39,121 nucleotides of DNA from Deltaproteobacteria bacterium (GTDB taxonomy: Bacteria > Desulfobacterota > Desulfuromonadia > Desulfuromonadales > BM103). The stretch is from the NCBI GenBank assembly GCA_024636155.1, contig JAGXHM010000094.1:1-39121 (forward strand). Direction: 5' to 3'. A program made the position numbers and the translations under genes. Shown one piece after another: positions 2,029 to 21,901 of the stretch (the stretch's first letter is position 1; every line of letters begins with the position of its first letter). The notes below the pieces were generated by a model. It did no database searches. It was not told where the DNA came from and worked only from the letters and a program-made list of their open reading frames with translations.

Positions 2029-4557
2029 TTAATCTACATTGGTCTCGGTATCTTTCAACTCGACAGCAGTTTTGTGAATCCCCAGAGCTCGAACCAGCTC
2101 AATATCCCTTTCGAGCAGATAGGCCGCCAGAAAAAGAGGGCTGCCGGAATGCATTTTCATACAGAGAACATTGTCTTCTCGTTGCAGATCAAGGACCCAG
2201 GGACGCAAGTCGAGTTCGCTGGTGCGGTTCTTTTTGCTCCGGGTCGTGATGACAGTCTCTTGTGCAAGGAAGTCTTTCAGCCGGTCTACAAGTTTCTCAT
2301 CCGTGTCCTCCGGCAAAGGCACTTTGAAGGTCGCAGCCAGGATACTGTTCGCCGGGGCTTCACCTTTGCGTGGCCAGAGTTCGGCCTTCAAGACACGAAC
2401 GCCTTCCGGTAACTCCTGGTTGAGTTTGTCCATCGTGTCCTGCGGCTGGCAGGGTGTGGTCAACTCCAGGTCAATAAGTTCCGCTTCGCTGGCAACGCCA
2501 AGCGGCAGTGCATCGCCGAAGCTGATGCGGGGGGCTGGATGGAAACCCTTCGAATATCTGATCGGCAACCCTGCGCGGCGAACCGCCCGATGAATCAGGG
2601 TCATGTACTCCAGGTGGCTGAGGCTGGCTGTCCGGTCGAGTTTGGTTATGGTCAGTCGCACTTTCGGTAGTAACAGTGGTTCGACAAGTTCAGCCTCAGG
2701 CTCAACAACTGGCGGTTCTAAACGACTGCTGTCCGCCAGGCGTGGTCGGACAGTCTCGAAATCGCAGAGACCGCAATAGCTGCATTCGCCGTTCCGGCAA
2801 TCCGGGGTGGCTTTGCCGAGCAGGCCGGCCTGACGTTCGCGCAGCAGGAATTCTTTTGTGACTCCGGCGTCGATATGGTCCCAGGGCAGGACTTCTTCTG
2901 GCAGTCGCTGGCGCAGGTACCAGCTTGGGTCAAGATCAACGGCGGCAAAAGCCTCTTGCCATAGGTCCCAACGAAAATGGTCACGCCAACCATCAAAGCG
3001 ACAACCGCGTTTGACCGCCTCTTCGAGAACATTTCCCAAGCGGCGATCACCACGGGCAAAGACACCTTCGAGAAAGGAAAGTTCCGCTTCGTGCCATTTC
3101 AGTCGCAGCTTCTTCTTTTTAAGGGATCCGCGTAAGTTGTTCTTGCGAGCCAGAGTTTCATCGATGCCGATCTGGGCGTCCCATTGAAAGGGGGTGTGGG
3201 CCTTGGGGACGAAGGTCGAGACCGACACGTTAACGTCTGCTCCGCCCTGTGTGCTGCGCCCGGCAGCTTTGACCCTGGCAGAAAGATCGACCAGCGCGGC
3301 GAGGTCTTCATCGGTTTCGGTTGGCAGGCCGATCATGAAATAGAGCTTGATGACTCGCCAGCCGAGTTCAAAGGCGGTGCGCGCGCTTTCGATCAGATCC
3401 TCTTCGAGAATCCCCTTGTTGATGACTTGTCGCAGACGTTCACTGCCCGCTTCGGGAGCAAGGGTAAAGCCGGTTTTGCGTACCTTCTTGATTTCGTCCA
3501 TCAACGCAGGGGTCAGCGAACCGACCCGCAGACTTGGCAGGGAGATCGCCACCTGCTGGTCGGCGTAGCAGCCCATGATGTTCTGCATCAGAATTTCAAT
3601 GGCACTGTAGTCACCGGTCGAGAGGGAGAGCAGGGAAACTTCGTCGTGGCCGGAATGACGCAGCAGTTGATCAATCAGGTTGCGGATTGTGTCTGGTTGG
3701 CGTTCGCGCACGGGCCGATAGATGTAGCCTGCCTGACAGAAGCGACAGCCACGGGTGCAGCCGCGTGCGACCTCGACTGCAACCCGATCATGGACGGTTT
3801 GCAAAAAAGGTACGATCGGCTGCTCCGGGTAGGGGGCAGAATCAAGATCAGCCAGAACCCGGCGGCGCACTTTCGGTTGTTGCAGGTCTTTAGGTGCGAT
3901 CTCTGTAATCCGGCCGTCCGGTTGATAGATGACGGAGAAAAAGGACGGCACATACATGCCTTCGATCGCTGCCAGACGTTTCAGCAGAGCTGCCCGGTTC
4001 TCGCCAGCCGCTTTGCTGGTGCGAACTGCGGCGCAGAGCTCAAGGACAACCTCTTCCCCGTCACCAATGACAGCGCAGTCGAAAAAGTCGGCGAGCGGTT
4101 CCGGATTAAAGGCACAGGGACCGCCCACTATAATCAATGGTGCTTCTTCCCCTCGTTCGCTGGCTCGCATCGGCAGGCCGGATAGATCGAGCATGGTCAG
4201 GACATTCGAATAGCAGAGTTCGTACTGCAGCGAGAAGCCAATAATGTCGAAGTCGGCCAGATTCCGGCCACTTTCGAGAGATGAAAGTAGCCTACCGTCG
4301 CTACGCAGTTGTGCCTCGCGATCCGGCCACGGTGTGTAGCTGCGTTCAGCGGCAATCCACGGTGTGTCGTTGAGAACCCGGTAGAGGATGGCCGAGCCGA
4401 TATGACTCATGCCGATTTCGTAGACATCGGGGAAGGCAAGGGCGAAAGTCACGTCGACCTGAGCCCAGTCTTTGGCTACGCTACCGCGTTCGCCACCGGT
4501 GTAGCGAGCCGGGCGTTGCAATTCGTAAAGTGAAGATTTTTGTGTCATGGGGAGCAT
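2029..4557 (-). CDS. Radical SAM protein fused to DUF2344 (TIGR03960/TIGR03936 type)
   Basis: This 842-residue fusion has three parts. The N-terminal region resembles a B12-binding-like Rossmann domain (FALAFPDVYEIGMSHIG). The radical SAM core carries the CX3CX2C cluster motif CTRGCRFC at about 267-274. The C-terminal DUF2344 domain begins near residue 630 (KVRLTITKLDRTASLSHLEYM). An extra Cys-rich segment, CRNGECSYCGLCDFE, near 590-605 may bind another metal site. The family recurs directly upstream of RNase G and L21 genes, suggesting a role in RNA or ribosome modification, but no reaction can be assigned from sequence. Neither the ATG at 4555-4557 nor the one at 4546-4548 has a convincing ribosome-binding site, so the start is uncertain by three codons. 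Confidence 0.9.
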   Translation of the reverse strand: MLPMTQKSSLYELQRPARYTGGERGSVAKDWAQVDVTFALAFPDVYEIGMSHIGSAILYRVLNDTPWIAAERSYTPWPDREAQLRSDGRLLSSLESGRNLADFDIIGFSLQYELCYSNVLTMLDLSGLPMRASERGEEAPLIIVGGPCAFNPEPLADFFDCAVIGDGEEVVLELCAAVRTSKAAGENRAALLKRLAAIEGMYVPSFFSVIYQPDGRITEIAPKDLQQPKVRRRVLADLDSAPYPEQPIVPFLQTVHDRVAVEVARGCTRGCRFCQAGYIYRPVRERQPDTIRNLIDQLLRHSGHDEVSLLSLSTGDYSAIEILMQNIMGCYADQQVAISLPSLRVGSLTPALMDEIKKVRKTGFTLAPEAGSERLRQVINKGILEEDLIESARTAFELGWRVIKLYFMIGLPTETDEDLAALVDLSARVKAAGRSTQGGADVNVSVSTFVPKAHTPFQWDAQIGIDETLARKNNLRGSLKKKKLRLKWHEAELSFLEGVFARGDRRLGNVLEEAVKRGCRFDGWRDHFRWDLWQEAFAAVDLDPSWYLRQRLPEEVLPWDHIDAGVTKEFLLRERQAGLLGKATPDCRNGECSYCGLCDFETVRPRLADSSRLEPPVVEPEAELVEPLLLPKVRLTITKLDRTASLSHLEYMTLIHRAVRRAGLPIRYSKGFHPAPRISFGDALPLGVASEAELIDLELTTPCQPQDTMDKLNQELPEGVRVLKAELWPRKGEAPANSILAATFKVPLPEDTDEKLVDRLKDFLAQETVITTRSKKNRTSELDLRPWVLDLQREDNVLCMKMHSGSPLFLAAYLLERDIELVRALGIHKTAVELKDTETNVD

Positions 4558-4778: not shown

Positions 4779-7079
4779 TTAGAAGCGGTAACCAAGACCT
4801 ACGTAACTGTAGTAGGCTTTGCCGTCTTCATCTCCATAGACATACTCTTCATCGGAGTTGAACACGTCATAAGTGAACGTCGCCGTGGTGTACAACGCGT
4901 CGGTAAACCTGTATTCACCACCGACAGTGATTTGGTACTGGTCGTACGTCAGGTCGGAATACGAGTCAATCTCGTTGTTTTGCTCCCAAGTGTCGTAAGC
5001 GCCAAGTGGTGACCCACTAAGTGAGGTCATGGTCATGCGCTCCTGGAAATCCCAGTCCCATGAGTAATCGGCGTAATTGTAAACAAAGCTTGCATCAAGT
5101 CTTAACTTTTCTGTTGCCTGATAGTTTGCACTCAGAGCAACGGTATGTACATCGGTATCAGCTGTAGCGGTACTGCATATCGACCCCAACTGGGTCGACG
5201 AGTTGGTATCCGCTCAGCCATGGTACCATCCGACACACATCTGATTCTCTGTCTTCTGCTTGTTGAAGTTATAAGCCATGGATAGATTCAACTTGTCGGT
5301 CGGTGCATACCACAAGGTGACGCCAGGAACGTAGGTGTTCTCTTCGTACTTGACGGCGTCATTCTCCTCGTAACGATAGCGGAAATAGGCAGTCAATGCC
5401 GAGTTCGCCGTAGGTGACCACGTTGTGCTGATCTTTGCTTCCTGAACCTGATCAGGCTGGTTTGTCGCATCAAGTCCGCGAGAAGGATAGATGGTGTTCC
5501 AATAGTACACACCATCTGTATTCCCTTGAGCCAACGGGTCTGTGTTGGTTCCATCTGGATTCATGTAATCTTTTGTTAACAGGTAGGAGAGATCTCCATC
5601 GACAGTAGCATCGGGGTGTCCCTGGGCAATGCCTGTCGCATCTTCGCCATGGAATGGGTCGTCGATGTCTTGATACATGTAATTAAAGCGCGTGTTCAGC
5701 CCTTTAGCAATACGGCTGTTTACCGCAACGGTGTACGTATTTGTTTCGGTTTCGCCCAGTGTGCTTTCAGCGCGATCGATGTCTTCGTAGTCATAGCCGA
5801 GACGCAATGTAGTGCCTCGAGAGACGCGATACTTGGCATCAAAGCCAAGCTCTGTCACGTCACGACTTTCTGCCGACTCGTAATGTTCTTCTTGCTCAAA
5901 GGTGTTGTTGCTGCGGTCCATGACGCCGTCATGGTCCCAGTCAACATTATCAACCCGATCCGGGAAAGACAGGGTGTAGTCGGCCCCGTCGATATCGTAG
6001 GTTGACCCATGCATGGAAAGACGCCAATTGCCGATTCGTGTTGCACCCTTTAAGGCAAACAACTCAAGTGTGCTGGACAGTGTGTTGCTACCTACAAACT
6101 CATAGGTGCCCGGCTCGTCTTGCTTGTCACTTTCAATATCGGCATGAACATAGGTACCAGTAATGACCGAGCTGGCAGGCAGGTCAAGACGGGCATTAAC
6201 GGTGTGACTATCTTTTTCAGAGTCGGGAGTCTGGTTGTATTCCAGTTCCTCATTTATATACAGAAACTGAGCTGGGTCCTGACTTGCGTAACGCCACTTT
6301 GTACTGTTCCAATACTTATAGCTAGGACCAGTGTCGCCATCAAAATCGCGATTCAGGTACTCGTAATCAACAGTCAACATCCCAAATTTGCCAGTTACGC
6401 CTAAAGTGAGATCTTCTGTTCTCTCGTTAATGTCTTTAGGGTTCGCTTCGATGTGGCAAGCCGAACATTTGCTAATGGCAATGGCCTGCTCCATTCCCTC
6501 GCGCTCTTCAACGCGCTGGCCAGCATGGAACGTAATGTTAGGCATGCTGGGCACGATTACATCTACGTCAGTTTCAAACTCACTGCGTTTAATGAGGTAA
6601 TCTTGGTCCAGCTCCCAAGCGTACTGCTCAGGATCTTTTGTGGCGTTGGTAAAGACGCGAGGTTGATCACCATCAATGTCGCCAGTCATGGTGGCTCCGA
6701 GGTGCTCAAGATTGTCATGATCCTTCCAGTGTTCGAAAACCTGGTAGTCAAGGTCGAGCCGGAGGACCCTGTTGAAATCGGCCTTAAGTCCGTAGCCCTG
6801 ATCCGCTGGCCCTCTAACGTCTGTCTCCGCCTCGATCCAGATCCCCTTGTTCAGGTATTCCAGGTCCAGGCTGGGGGCGAAACTCAGACCGTCGTCAGGA
6901 CGATATCTTGAATATTCATTGACACGTGCAGGATTGTCTTTGGTATCCGCAGCCGCGGCGCCAACTTCCATATTACCGCTGAGATGAGCGGAATCTTCTT
7001 CCGCTATCGCCAGCGTGGAGGTCGCCGCCAGGGTCAGGATGGACAATAGTGCAAGCAACCATATAGTGCTTTGCTTCAT
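4779..7079 (-). CDS. MtrB/PioB-family outer-membrane beta-barrel with one in-frame UGA
   Basis: This would be a 766-residue outer-membrane porin-like barrel of the kind that holds a multiheme cytochrome across the outer membrane. There is a signal peptide (residues 1-26, ending LAIA). Many alternating amphipathic strands follow, rich in Y, D and N, and the C-terminus is aromatic (YVGLGYRF), as in barrel assembly signals. The frame is broken only once, by TGA at 5214-5216 after 621 codons. The next 144 codons stay in the same frame, continue the strand pattern and end naturally. No good start or ribosome-binding site exists after the UGA: the first possible initiator is TTG at 5187-5189. A CXXCH motif (CSACH, 205-209) could bind heme. 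The start has an AGGAGG site. It is either a recoded selenoprotein, a recent nonsense mutation or a sequencing error. Confidence 0.8.
5180..5216 (-). promoter_or_regulatory. In-frame UGA plus downstream hairpin, candidate bacterial SECIS
   Basis: In the minus-strand transcript the UGA (5214-5216) is followed, after 15 nt, by UCGACCC-AGUUG-GGGUCGA (5198 to 5180). This is a perfect 7-bp stem, extendable by one G-U pair. The loop starts 22 nt after the UGA and has G as its second base. These values fall within the known loose model for bacterial SECIS elements: a short stem, a small loop with an early G, and a loop 16-37 nt from the UGA. A self-complementary stretch of this size can also arise by chance, so this remains a candidate. 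Confidence 0.35.
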
Positions 7080-7097: not shown

Positions 7098-8222
7098 TTA
7101 ACGGGTCAGGCCGCCACCGCTGAGCGGTTGAGACGGGAGGTCACTGCCATGAACAACTTGATGGCAGGTCGTGCATTTGGTGGCAAACGATGTCTGCCAT
7201 CCTTCCGCCCCATGCGGATTGGCCGCTGTTGTGGCCGCGGTGTTAGGTGTACTTCGAGAATAAACCGTCCACCGGTCAGGATAATCCTCGTTCATGAAGA
7301 AGCGGACATCCGGGTTGGCTGCTGAGACACTATCAAACTCGGCTTTTGCCTCAGCCTTAGTTGGAAAGCTTAACTTGTCATATGGCTTGACTCCGGTGTT
7401 AAACTTTGCCGTTGCAGGCACGGGATCAAATCCTTTGCGCAGCATATGGAAGTGCCCTTCGTGGCACTGCAGGCAGAGGAACGGTTCGTTCTGGACCAGC
7501 AGGTTGTTGGCAACGGAACCGTGTGGATCGTGACAGATGGTACAGTCATCTTCAACCGGGGCGTGACCGAATACGAAAGGGCCCTGATAGCGGCTGTGAC
7601 AGTCGAGACAGAGGTCGGTGGTGCGTTCCTGAGTATTCAGATCGCCATGCGGATTGTGACAATCGCCGCAGGTCATCTTGCCTTCCTTGATCGGGTGATG
7701 AGAAGGGAAGTTGGTCTTGGCTTGCTGCTCCTGATGGCAGGTATAGCAGAGTTCTGGATCTTGCTTCTTTAGGGCTGTTTTTTCGCCACCATGAATTGTG
7801 TGACAGTCGTTGCAGGAAACGTCGCTCAAGGCGTGCTCGCCATGAGTCCAGTCCATAAGCTTGCCGTCGGTGTGACATGTAGCACAGACTGCAGCGGATT
7901 CTTCTGGCAGCAGTTCACCAAACTTGAGAATTTGACCGTTGTCATCCGAGTTGACGTGCAGGCTGCCGCCGCCATGACAGGCTTCGCACCCTTCGGTGCC
8001 GCCCATATACTCGAATCCGGTCAAGCGCGAATGAACCCCCGCACTCATACCTTCGTGACACTCCGCGCAGGCCTCTTGGCCCACTGAAGTAGCGCCATCA
8101 ATGACTGGTAGTGTTAACTGCTTCTCCCTGATCGCTCCGGTGGCGCATGCCCCCAGAATGAGTAACAGGGGAAGGAGCTTGACCAGCCAGGGCGCCCTGG
8201 ATAGTGATACCTTCCTATGCAT
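7098..8222 (-). CDS. Decaheme c-type cytochrome lipoprotein, DmsE/MtrA-like
   Basis: This 374-residue exported protein has ten CXXCH heme-binding motifs: CAECH, CEACH, CATCH, CNDCH, CYTCH, CGDCH, CLDCH, CTICH, CLQCH and CTTCH. Nine are packed in the first two thirds. The tenth is separated by an insert of about 90 residues lacking heme motifs. The signal peptide ends in a lipobox, LGAC, with C26 as the lipidated cysteine, so it should be membrane-anchored. Its likely role is to carry electrons from the periplasm into the barrel encoded 18 bp downstream. I chose the ATG at 8220-8222 because AAAGGAG precedes it by 6-7 nt. An upstream ATG at 8252 lacks such a site. No outer-surface MtrC-like cytochrome lies beside it. 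Confidence 0.92.
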   Translation of the reverse strand: MHRKVSLSRAPWLVKLLPLLLILGACATGAIREKQLTLPVIDGATSVGQEACAECHEGMSAGVHSRLTGFEYMGGTEGCEACHGGGSLHVNSDDNGQILKFGELLPEESAAVCATCHTDGKLMDWTHGEHALSDVSCNDCHTIHGGEKTALKKQDPELCYTCHQEQQAKTNFPSHHPIKEGKMTCGDCHNPHGDLNTQERTTDLCLDCHSRYQGPFVFGHAPVEDDCTICHDPHGSVANNLLVQNEPFLCLQCHEGHFHMLRKGFDPVPATAKFNTGVKPYDKLSFPTKAEAKAEFDSVSAANPDVRFFMNEDYPDRWTVYSRSTPNTAATTAANPHGAEGWQTSFATKCTTCHQVVHGSDLPSQPLSGGGLTR

Positions 8223-8390
8223 GTTTTCTCCTTTCCACGTTGAATGCCTCAAAAAAAAACAGTAAACTAACGACTAGTGGCCTTTAGATCGAGTAAGCCT
8301 CCTTTGTAAAGTTCAGGCCGGAATCTGTGATCTCTTTCATTAGAATTTTGAAGAAGTGGTTCATTAGCTATTTAGAATCTGTTGTATGAT

Positions 8391-8480: not shown

Positions 8481-9422
8481 ATGGAAACGCGTTACCTGAA
8501 TACTCTGGTCACTTCGGTTGAAGCAGGAACCTTTTCCAGGGCTGCGGAAATACTGCACATTACCCAGTCCGCTGTATCGCAGCGTATCAAATTTCTCGAA
8601 GAGTATTTTGGCCAACAATTACTCGACCGCTCCGGCCAAAGACTGGCTTTGACCGCGTCGGGTCAGGTGGTTTTTGCCAAAGCCAAAGAAATCCTTGAAA
8701 AAGAGCGCGAGCTGCTGAACTGTCTGCAAAAATCCGTCTCGCAAAAACGCCTGTCTCTCTGTTGTACGCCTACTTTCGGTATGGCTTATCTGCCTCGGGT
8801 CCTGAATGCCTTTCTGCGGATACATTCTGATCTGAGCGACCTCAAATTTGTTTTTCAGCAACCTGCAGAAGCTTTAAGAGGTCTGCGCCATGAAGAGTTC
8901 GACCTTGCTGTGATCGAGCACCGCCTGAATCTGGACTTTGCCGGTTTCGATTATTTCTCCCTGCCCGAGGATGAAATGTTGATGGTCGCGTCTGCCTCTG
9001 CTGCTATTCCTGCCATTGATGGGGTTATCCAGCTTTCTGATCTGAAGAAGTTCAGGCTCTTTGCTCGCCGCGACGGTTGCAGTTCCAAGGAGCTGTTGCG
9101 TCAGAATCTTGCGACACATGGTTTTGATTTCAGTGGCTTTGATGGTGTTCTGGTCTCAGATGACCTGCATTTTACGGTGCAGTCGGTTCTGCAGGGCGAT
9201 GGGATTGCTTATGTTTCGCAAGCTCTGGTCAGCAATTACCTGGCGAGCGGCGAGCTGGTCGGCTTTCGTGCCGAAGGTTTCGAACACCGGCGCGGTCGCA
9301 GTGTGGTGATGCTCCCGCAGCGGAGTGATGATGGTTTTCTGAAAGAATTTCTCGATTGTTTGTTCAATGAAGTGTCGCCGCTATCGCGCCCGCAGATGAC
9401 GAGCGGCGGTCTCGTGAGTTAA
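8481..9422 (+). CDS. LysR-family transcriptional regulator
   Basis: This 313-residue protein has a typical LysR winged helix-turn-helix at about 4-62 (AGTFSRAAEILHITQSAVSQ) and a periplasmic-binding-protein-like effector domain (about 90-295). The effector molecule cannot be deduced. It is divergent from the decaheme cytochrome operon and 72 bp upstream of a carbonic anhydrase gene on the same strand. Either could be its target: LysR genes often regulate a divergent neighbour, while the close tandem placement suggests a link to CO2/bicarbonate. The ATG at 8481 is the first codon of the conserved domain, although its ribosome-binding site is weak. Confidence 0.92.
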   Translation: METRYLNTLVTSVEAGTFSRAAEILHITQSAVSQRIKFLEEYFGQQLLDRSGQRLALTASGQVVFAKAKEILEKERELLNCLQKSVSQKRLSLCCTPTFGMAYLPRVLNAFLRIHSDLSDLKFVFQQPAEALRGLRHEEFDLAVIEHRLNLDFAGFDYFSLPEDEMLMVASASAAIPAIDGVIQLSDLKKFRLFARRDGCSSKELLRQNLATHGFDFSGFDGVLVSDDLHFTVQSVLQGDGIAYVSQALVSNYLASGELVGFRAEGFEHRRGRSVVMLPQRSDDGFLKEFLDCLFNEVSPLSRPQMTSGGLVS

Positions 9423-18862: not shown

Positions 18863-21800
18863 ATGACTAAAGGGGCGCGCATACTGATTAGCTCAACCCT
18901 GCTGGTGCTGTTGAGCACGGTCGGTGGCCTCTGGCTCGCAGCCGATCGGTTGCTGGATGGGGTTGTCCGCTCCTGGCTGACAGCAAGAGCCGCCGTTGCA
19001 CTCGATGCAGAGGTTGCGTGTGAGAGGCTGGCATACGGCGATGGCTGGCTGCACCTGACCGGTCTGACCCTTACCAGGCCCAATGAACTCCAGCTCGACG
19101 TGGCCGCTATCGACGTCAAGTTTTCCTGGGCTGGCCTGTTGCAACGCCGGATCGACGAGCTGGTGGTCCGCGAACCGCAACTGATCTGGACGGCCTCAGA
19201 ACAACAGGCGGCCGAAGAGCAGGCCATCTGGCCAGAGGATCCGCCGCTGGGCATCGATACCTGGCGCCTCGAAAATGGTCGTGTCGAACTGACTTTTGGC
19301 GCGCGCAACTTCCTGCTCGACCGGATCGCTGCAGAGGGCGGTCTGGATCGACAGTTTCCCTTTGCCATCTCAGCCATCACTGGCACGGCCCCCGCTCTGC
19401 CGTTAAAATTGACCGGCAATGCTCGCTGGGAAGACGGCCTCACCTTGACCCTTGATGAACTCTCCTGGGATGGGAAAAATCTGCTCGCCCAACCGGTAAT
19501 ACTCGCGCCCGGATCCGATCAGACTCTTGGCGTGAAGCTGAGTCTGGCCCAACTCGATGACGCCGAACTCGGCGGGCTGCTCACCTCCCTGGGTGAACCG
19601 GTGCCATGGCCTAACAACCTGCACTGGCAACTGACCTCGCCTGTCCTTGATCTCCGCCTCCGCGATAAACGCCTTGAAGCCAGCCTGCAGACCGCTGCCG
19701 GTGCGCTGCAGATGGCTGATCAAAACTGGCCATGGCTGAATATAAATCTTGGGCTGCAGGGCGATGCAGCACGGCTGGAGCTGACCGGCAGTGTCGGGCT
19801 GGCCGGTGCCACGACGCTGGATTTGGCCGGGACCTGGGCCGATCAGCGTATGAACGGCAGCTGGAGTGTGGCGGTGGCGAGTCCTGCCGAATTATTAAAA
19901 AATGTCGGCATGGCCATGCCGACATCAGCCTTCGCGCCACGTGACCTGACGATGCAAGGCCTGTTCGAGGTTGGTCAAGATTCCGCCCGGATTAGCAAGG
20001 CACGGCTGGCGACCAACCTCGGTGAACTCGGCACTCTGGCGGGTGATGTGCACAGCGAGTGGCATGACGAACAGCTGACGCTTGGCTGTGAGCGCCTGAC
20101 TCTCACCGCTCTGGACGGCGTCTCCCTCCTGGCTGAGGCAACCCTGTCTCTGTCAGGGACTCCGGCTGAATCTGCCTGGCAGGGTGACTGGTCGCTGCAG
20201 GTGATCGACGTAGGGCGGTTGGCCAGCAAAGGCGGGTTTCCTCTGCCCGACGGCCTCCCCGATTTGCAAGAGCTGTCAGTGAAGGGCAAACTGCGCTTCC
20301 GGAATAGCCGCCTGAGCCTGCCGGGCGTCGACTTGACCGGCAAGGTGACCGGCGCCGGGTTCTCAGGACTTTTGCATGGGCGGCTCGCACTGCAGACAGC
20401 TCCCGACATTGATCTGGCGGTCACCTTTGAGTCCCTTGCGATGGACGCTCTTGACTACCAGGCTGAAGACGGTATGGCCGGCCTGATTGGCGGTAAACTC
20501 GATATGAACGGCCGTCTGGAATTGACCGGCGAGCGCTTGAGCTTTGATCTGTCCGGGCGGGTCGGTGCCACCGAGGCGCTACTGGATAGTTGGTATGGCA
20601 GCCTGCAGGAGCTACCCGCCAGCTTTGCCCTCAAGGGGAGCTGGCTGCGCGACCGGCAGCGTCTGGAACTGACCTCAGCCGAAGTCGACCTGGCCAGCCT
20701 GGTCAACGGTCGCTTTACCGGGGTGTTTGTCGACGGCGAGACCAGCCTGAGAGGACAAGTCGAAGTTCCGCAGATGAACGGTGCTTTTCAGCAGACGCTC
20801 CAGACCTTGACCGGTGAACTGCTGCCGGGCATCAACCGGGTCTCTCTGGATGGACGGCTGATGTTTGACGGTGCCGCCCGACATCGGCAGGGAAACTGGA
20901 ACCTTGATCTGGATATGGTGCCGACCGATGTGACCATCGCCTGGGGCAAGGACGCCAGGATCGACGGTCTGCACGGACGCTTGCCGATCCACCTGCGGCA
21001 AAGCGGCCCGGCGGCGGACGATCTGGCCGAAACTGCCAGCCTGCAGTGGTCGCGCTTGCAGGGTGGTCTGTTCAATTCAGGTCCTGGCCGGCTGGAGCTG
21101 CAGGCGTCTACCAACCGCTGGCATCTGCAGCAACCCCTCGAACTGGCCGTCGCCGGCGGCAAGATGCGGTTGACCGCCCTGCAGCTCGATCTGCCAGAGC
21201 TGGTGCCGCAGTTGCAGGCATCGCTCGAAGTGCAGGATGTCGAGTTGCATCAAATTGCCAAGAGTATGGCATGGCCTGAAATGGGCGGCCTGTTGAACGC
21301 CCGTCTGGGCGAAGTTCGCATCGCCAAAGATGAGATCAGCACCGTCGGTGACGCCTCGATGCATGCTTTTGGCGGCGCCTTCTCGGTCAACAATATGCGT
21401 GTGGAGGCGCCTTTCTCGCGTTTCCCGACCTATCATGCCGATGTTGATTTTAGCGGCATCGATCTCTACCAGCTGACCAACACCTTCGCCTTTGGCGAGA
21501 TGAACGGCATCGCCGACGGTTACATCCATGACCTGCGTCTGTTTGACGGCATCCCCTCGGAACTGCACGCCAAACTGGAGACCCGTCCCGAGGGAACCCG
21601 CAATATCAGTGTCAAGGCGATCCGCAACCTCAACACGCTCAGCATGGGCGGCCTCTCTGCAGCTCTTTCCCAGGGGATTTACAAGTTCATCGATTTTTAT
21701 CGTTACCGTAAGATCGGTATCATCTGCCAGCTGGAGAACGACCGCTTCCAGCTTGAGGGGACCGGTCGTGAAGGCTCTGATCAGTACCTGATTTATGGCG

Positions 21801-21901
21801 GTCTGCTGCCGCCGCGCATCGACGTGGTGGTGTCCTCGCCGACGGTTTCATTTAAGGAAATGGTGCGTCGTCTCAAGCGTATCGAACGAACTGATCGTTG
21901 A
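18863..21901 (+). CDS. YdbH-like AsmA-type intermembrane protein
   Basis: This 1012-residue protein has one N-terminal membrane helix (about 6-28, ILISSTLLVLLSTVGGLWLAA), and the rest is expected in the periplasm. That region is a long run of amphipathic beta-strand repeats (LDLRL..., LELTG..., LSLSG...), as in AsmA-like bridge proteins that carry phospholipid along a hydrophobic groove between inner and outer membranes. The gene downstream encodes a DUF1318/YdbL protein. That is the partner found with E. coli YdbH, which is why I favour YdbH over TamB or YhdP. Overall similarity cannot be measured here. The ATG follows a weak site, with no better alternative nearby. Confidence 0.75.
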   Translation: MTKGARILISSTLLVLLSTVGGLWLAADRLLDGVVRSWLTARAAVALDAEVACERLAYGDGWLHLTGLTLTRPNELQLDVAAIDVKFSWAGLLQRRIDELVVREPQLIWTASEQQAAEEQAIWPEDPPLGIDTWRLENGRVELTFGARNFLLDRIAAEGGLDRQFPFAISAITGTAPALPLKLTGNARWEDGLTLTLDELSWDGKNLLAQPVILAPGSDQTLGVKLSLAQLDDAELGGLLTSLGEPVPWPNNLHWQLTSPVLDLRLRDKRLEASLQTAAGALQMADQNWPWLNINLGLQGDAARLELTGSVGLAGATTLDLAGTWADQRMNGSWSVAVASPAELLKNVGMAMPTSAFAPRDLTMQGLFEVGQDSARISKARLATNLGELGTLAGDVHSEWHDEQLTLGCERLTLTALDGVSLLAEATLSLSGTPAESAWQGDWSLQVIDVGRLASKGGFPLPDGLPDLQELSVKGKLRFRNSRLSLPGVDLTGKVTGAGFSGLLHGRLALQTAPDIDLAVTFESLAMDALDYQAEDGMAGLIGGKLDMNGRLELTGERLSFDLSGRVGATEALLDSWYGSLQELPASFALKGSWLRDRQRLELTSAEVDLASLVNGRFTGVFVDGETSLRGQVEVPQMNGAFQQTLQTLTGELLPGINRVSLDGRLMFDGAARHRQGNWNLDLDMVPTDVTIAWGKDARIDGLHGRLPIHLRQSGPAADDLAETASLQWSRLQGGLFNSGPGRLELQASTNRWHLQQPLELAVAGGKMRLTALQLDLPELVPQLQASLEVQDVELHQIAKSMAWPEMGGLLNARLGEVRIAKDEISTVGDASMHAFGGAFSVNNMRVEAPFSRFPTYHADVDFSGIDLYQLTNTFAFGEMNGIADGYIHDLRLFDGIPSELHAKLETRPEGTRNISVKAIRNLNTLSMGGLSAALSQGIYKFIDFYRYRKIGIICQLENDRFQLEGTGREGSDQYLIYGGLLPPRIDVVVSSPTVSFKEMVRRLKRIERTDR

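Follow-up and report, generated by a model that had tools for sequence, protein, structure and literature searches.

A predicted selenocysteine codon in the OmcL/GSU2204-family barrel gene of a porin–cytochrome gene pair

The window, as we call the whole 39,121-nucleotide stretch of DNA that was analysed, carries an outer-membrane β-barrel gene (4779..7079, minus strand) with a TGA inside its reading frame (5214..5216, minus strand), which raises the question of whether this codon ends the protein or is read through, and as what. The frame comprises 766 codons when UGA622 is counted as a predicted selenocysteine (Sec), followed by TAA. Translation confirms the claim of a preliminary description that the TGA at 5216–5214 is the sole internal stop and that no frameshift accompanies it: the context of codon 622 is CVGWYHG[U]ADTNSSTQLGSIC, and 144 further in-frame codons lead on to the TAA. 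In an alignment of relatives, the frame downstream of the UGA is conserved as far as the C-terminus.

The protein belongs to the OmcL/GSU2204 family of MtrB/PioB-like barrels. It matches the NCBIfam model NF041027, ‘GSU2204 family CXXCH-containing (seleno)protein’, at 594.8 bits (cut-off 350), residues 14–621 aligning with positions 2–580 of the 580-position model and the match ending just before the UGA, and it matches Pfam MtrB_PioB at 75.8 bits (gathering cut-off 23). The score against TIGR03509 (MtrB/PioB), 41.3 bits, is below the cut-off of 240.05; a sequence search of the PDB gave weak matches only (3dwo_X, E = 0.016; 6r2q_B, E = 0.033), and tblastn against plasmids gave none. Directly upstream of the barrel lies a decaheme c-type cytochrome of the OmcK/GSU2203 family (7098..8252, minus strand; NF041028, 431.3 bits, cut-off 325), which has ten CXXCH motifs, a lipobox-like LGAC near its N-terminus and a provisional start codon. 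A divergent LysR regulator of a multiheme cytochrome-associated family follows (8481..9422, plus strand; NF041036, 383.6 bits, cut-off 210).

The cytochrome partner recurs in relatives. Of the 43 UGA barrels for which 1000 nt or more of upstream sequence was available, 40 have a multiheme open reading frame (at least five CXXCH) directly upstream, a count that omits the 26 of 69 distinct UGA sites with less than 1000 nt; the 12 of those 26 with more than 500 nt all have 8 to 10 CXXCH there. In the exceptions, L030, L058 and L085, an interruption of the barrel frame ahead of the site means that the stretch examined probably lies inside the barrel. Judged from sequence, the gene is assigned as the barrel of an OmcK/OmcL-type porin–cytochrome conduit, predicted to carry electrons across the outer membrane. 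Elsewhere in the window, an open frame of 1012 amino acids (18863–21901, plus strand) has no Pfam or NCBIfam match at E 0.001.

The alignment of homologues at the UGA codon, which the preliminary description had put forward as a check, returned UGA, or Cys in one paralogue group, and Trp in no row. TGA occupies the codon column in 87 of the 98 rows of the profile alignment, Cys (TGC or TGT) in 8 and other codons in 3 (TTG, AGC and ACC, one each). These rows include repeats, as the window locus is present three times (L001, L002 and L073) and L032–L037 duplicate G-genome loci; judged over the UGA plus 45 nt, there are 72 distinct UGA sites. The underlying profile search yielded 166 domains, from which 106 rows were aligned, 98 of them with a residue at the column, and L028, L068, L069, L106, L107 and L109 have no alignable site. 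The share of Cys among the rows is not a frequency, because L052–L057 were chosen for matches without a stop. When the barrel protein was compared with 98 genomes, its own included, 49 had a match and 39 had a TGA inside a match (hand count).

A sample independent of the UGA is provided by NF041027, because that model stops just before the site. A search of 395 genomes from the phylum matched the model in 90 and exceeded its cut-off in 40, with 44 over-cut-off matches in total. Forty-one of these were read at the site, giving 38 UGA, 2 Cys (L103 and L105) and 1 Leu (L102), and the matches left unread are G429, G353:C233 and G237 (partial). The 30 best matches, the window itself among them, all have UGA. 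Since L102 is an over-cut-off relative with Leu, Sec or Cys at the column is not universal. L102 and one copy of L104, which has Ser, are long-branched in the tree, and L114, which has Thr, is a weak hit; these three may be misaligned at the column.

The tree is unrooted and covers 79 rows, the others among the 98 (repeats, L114 and UGA rows of short length) being omitted. The Cys rows form one group of six distinct rows (support 100/99), the sister of which is the UGA form L108 (100/98), and in this unrooted tree a Cys group nested beside a UGA form fits a Sec-to-Cys change. Cys and UGA forms also occur together in one genome, examples being G069 (L011 and L052) and G143 (L083 and L105). The Cys paralogue group (L052–L057, L103 and L105), which stands alongside the Sec form in several genomes, has the motif [FY][VI]G[C]FSESM. 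One member of the group, L105 of G143, contains a separate in-frame TGA 90 residues upstream of the Cys (LRSGY[TGA]TKSGSN); this codon could reflect a lesion or an error, or mark a second recoding site.

A SECIS-type hairpin (5179..5199, minus strand) starts at nucleotide 15 after the UGA. Its sequence is GUCGACCC-AGUUG-GGGUCGAU, in which 5199–5192 pair with 5186–5179 in an 8-bp stem that closes a loop at 5191–5187. The 7-bp hairpin originally described, UCGACCC/GGGUCGA with the loop AGUUG, is present as given and is extended by one pair, the outermost, which is G–U; the reported distance of 22 nt between UGA and loop also agrees, the loop starting at nucleotide 23 after the UGA. Bacterial SECIS elements follow a set spacing between UGA and loop and have an early G in the apical loop. 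The apical loop is AGUUG in the window and has GUU, GUA or GGU in most relatives. The UGA and the next 37 nt fold at −16 kcal/mol; shuffled versions average −9.07 (z = −2.63), and 2 of the 200 reach an energy this low. A search of Rfam gave no match at the UGA and hairpin site.

Stems were scored at SECIS-like spacing, with in-frame positions elsewhere in the same loci (n = 7064) serving as controls. The window hairpin scores 19.5, a value equalled or exceeded by 0.27% of the control positions. Mean scores are 17.2 for UGA sites, 10.0 for Cys rows (n = 8) and 7.3 for controls. A score of at least 12 is reached by 73 of 75 distinct UGA sites, 6.9% of controls and 3 of 8 Cys rows, and a score of at least 16 by 75% of UGA sites, 1.1% of controls and none of the 8 Cys rows.

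Covariation was measured in a gap-free alignment of 57 of the 72 distinct UGA sites, the other 15 being omitted for a shifted hairpin or an insertion (L010, L026, L064, L065, L067, L072, L074, L077, L082, L083, L089, L092, L093, L115 and L116); all 15 show some stem of at least 5 bp in a lenient best-of search. Covariation in the 9-pair helix scores 0.288 (n = 57); shuffles average 0.118, none of the 500 reaching the observed value, and slid partners give 0.046–0.114. Both sides are changed in 48 helix cells, compared with 22.3 in shuffles. Shuffles are not beaten by the number of both-side-changed pairs (5 versus 4.4) or of further pair types (14 versus 13.9), and on these two measures some slid helices are equal or higher. 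The outer three pairs of the helix are frequently unpaired (in 40, 25 and 17 of the 57 sequences). The pair between columns 23 and 33 occurs in all four Watson–Crick forms (CG 23, GC 16, AU 10 and UA 4; n = 57). Column 33 is the wobble base of a Gly codon and free at the protein level; in 53 of the 56 sequences with GG there, it pairs with column 23, the second and non-synonymous base of a variable codon. We read the pattern of this pair as selection on the RNA.

The genome has the machinery for Sec insertion. All four genes whose presence had been proposed as a check, selA, selB, selC and selD, were found over their cut-offs: tRNA-Sec at 68.4 bits (gathering score 47), selB at 397.7 bits (cut-off 242) and, by NCBIfam models, selA at 614 bits (cut-off 267.9) and selD at 363 bits (cut-off 125), the last three genes lying on one shared contig. 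The remaining nine matches of the tRNA search are under the cut-off. The same search gave some match in all 14 control genomes and one over the cut-off in 5. An over-cut-off selB is present in 37 of the 39 UGA-barrel genomes and in 46 of the 59 other genomes (hand count); the two UGA-barrel genomes lacking one, G059 and G071, are 87% and 84% complete. The co-occurrence of selB with the UGA barrel is consistent with Sec decoding but weakly discriminating, because 46 of the 59 others have selB too, and the exceptions are incomplete drafts.

Two further observations concern the same machinery. The tRNA-Sec gene directly follows yedF, which encodes a selenium metabolism protein (TIGR03527, 208.1 bits, cut-off 110; L051:4456-5212, G000:C52). 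An in-frame TGA also stands ahead of the selD frame, in the active-site region (SG[U]AAKMAPG; L050, approximately 4222–4225, minus strand; G000:C6), so that SelD is probably a selenoprotein too.

Computation thus supports Sec decoding through the alternation of UGA and Cys, the covarying hairpin, the Sec machinery and the conserved multiheme partner. The UGA at 5216–5214 is, from its sequence, almost certainly decoded as Sec, and this decoding together with the identity of the gene is very probable as a joint claim. SelB and tRNA-Sec would read the codon under the direction of the downstream hairpin, and the product would be an OmcL/GSU2204-type barrel with one covalent heme site and one Sec, partnering the ten-heme cytochrome.

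The preliminary description had named a recent nonsense change (for example, TGG to TGA) as the alternative, and a mutation or sequencing error of this kind would make the gene a pseudogene or a truncated barrel. A single substitution would be expected to leave just such a lone stop in a frame that is otherwise open, and the source genome is a draft, 71.8% complete in 137 contigs, but the UGA is shared by 87 of the 98 aligned rows, with Trp in none, and the frame beyond it is conserved to the C-terminus. This deep conservation across relatives contradicts a recent nonsense change, and the explanation has scarcely any probability left. A stop conserved across relatives could instead be a true one, leaving a functional barrel of approximately 621 residues and a C-terminal part that is internally started or made by occasional read-through. 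It had been claimed that no usable start follows the UGA, which is too strong, as a TTG-started frame of 136 amino acids exists mechanically at 4779–5189; nothing was found that suggests its use. Against a true stop, Cys replaces UGA in 8 rows, with frames running on past the Cys, the hairpin score is lower on average in these Cys rows (10.0 versus 17.2), and approximately five strands after the UGA would, by strand counting, be needed for closure of the barrel. We consider a true stop very unlikely.

A further possibility, which nothing found here favours, is that the UGA is translated as some different amino acid (a suppressor tRNA could insert Trp or Cys, for instance) or that the code is reassigned throughout the genome. 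Reassignment is at odds with the other frames of the window, which have ordinary stops and match families; either version is opposed by the presence of tRNA-Sec, selA, selB and selD in the genome and leaves a specific hairpin unexplained, and both together are improbable in the extreme.

If the codon is read as Sec, the barrel would combine this residue with a heme. Its single CXXCH heme-attachment motif, CSACH, spans residues 205–209 (6453..6467, minus strand), and C205, C208 and H209 are invariant in an 11-row alignment. Each of the 63 UGA barrels in which the upstream frame runs uninterrupted for more than 400 residues has exactly one CXXCH, located 376–487 residues before the Sec. Five of the six Cys rows also have one CXXCH, and the sixth, L105, was read only back to its other in-frame TGA. 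A Cys at −7 relative to the Sec is present in most but not all members and a Cys at +13 is not universal, so that no fixed Cys/Sec pair defines the family.

The AlphaFold model of the barrel is poor (pLDDT 40, from a 7-row alignment), and strands were counted from the sequence and the strand pattern of this model as a rough aid only. Counting from the C-terminus gives approximately 5 strands after the Sec loop and approximately 14 separating the CXXCH loop from the Sec loop. The C-terminus of barrels of this kind is periplasmic. With approximately five strands beyond it, the Sec loop would be extracellular, and the approximately 14 strands between the two loops would place both on the same side; from this count we infer that the heme site and the Sec lie on the same, probably extracellular, face.

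Electrons would pass from the decaheme protein to the heme of the barrel, where the Sec would tune, ligate or accept, acting either as a redox group of low potential or as a ligand of heme or metal. The idea that a heme and a Sec in extracellular loops form an outer electron-transfer or ligand site of the conduit is tentative and somewhat short of an even chance. That this outer-face pair is a catalytic or electron-exit site, making the barrel more than a sheath in a conduit that differs in principle from MtrCAB, is if anything a little more speculative. A structural role of the Sec, for example in a selenenyl-sulfide with the Cys at −7, is possible.

The view of the preliminary description that no Sec is known in this family is mistaken: the name of NF041027 includes ‘(seleno)protein’, and two reviews, in the portions available, tabulate an MtrB/PioB-type barrel as a selenoprotein family (PMC13188914, PMC9312934). 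The locus is another member of this already predicted selenoprotein family. No experimental test of Sec in a GSU2204/OmcL-type barrel was recognised in the literature searched, subscription papers being mostly outside that search. PMC2398784, which PMC13188914 cites for the family, does not contain the words MtrB, outer membrane, cytochrome, decaheme or porin in its main text as available, and ‘seleno’ is absent from PMC12133095 and PMC5539420. Added here are the RNA covariation test, the count of heme and Sec pairing, the nested Cys group and the link between OmcKL and selenium.

Compared with its family model, NF041027 (OmcL of Geobacter sulfurreducens), the window barrel shows no essential difference: the match covers the whole model, and the single CXXCH and the upstream GSU2203-family decaheme partner are shared. 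According to the available text of PMC4070692, GSU2203 is named OmcK, and GSU2203 and GSU2204 of G. sulfurreducens are up 2.68-fold and 2.36-fold on hematite and 1.65-fold and 1.53-fold on magnetite. The corresponding text of PMC10553843 names the pair OmcK/OmcL, the first being called an extracellular cytochrome and the second a porin, and reports expression of a homologous pair in HotSeep-1 at four times that of oetABI; the two sources taken together equate OmcL with GSU2204. As far as these texts go, the OmcKL conduit found in Geobacter and in HotSeep-1/Seep-SRB2, the latter being partners of ANME archaea, has the same GSU2203/GSU2204-family cytochrome–barrel pair as the window (PMC10553843, PMC4070692). 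It differs in that OmcL is described solely as a porin, the word ‘selenocysteine’ having zero occurrences in the available text of PMC10553843. The ExtKL multiheme selenocytochrome of Geobacter is likewise a predicted selenoprotein in an outer-membrane/cytochrome cluster but, by the accessible part of PMC5877670, is a cytochrome in a different operon, whereas the protein here is a barrel. Homology of the window barrel to MtrB/PioB barrels (MtrB, PDB 6R2Q) is distant, the TIGR03509 score being well under cut-off. The GSU2204 family is marked off from MtrB by the single CXXCH together with Sec. MtrB is not known to have either.

Joining the selenoprotein tables to the electron-transfer literature, in the parts of both that were available, suggests that selenium may be required by a conduit that is expressed on iron oxides and in consortia that consume methane. 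Gene callers ending at the UGA drop the Sec and the last strands, so that OmcL models or heterologous expression based on the truncation would be wrong. As each barrel has one heme site and one Sec, the role of the Sec is testable by single substitution. The source genome also encodes a second, distant barrel homologue (G000:C79:10034-11593, L107), an open frame of 689 amino acids with no internal stop.
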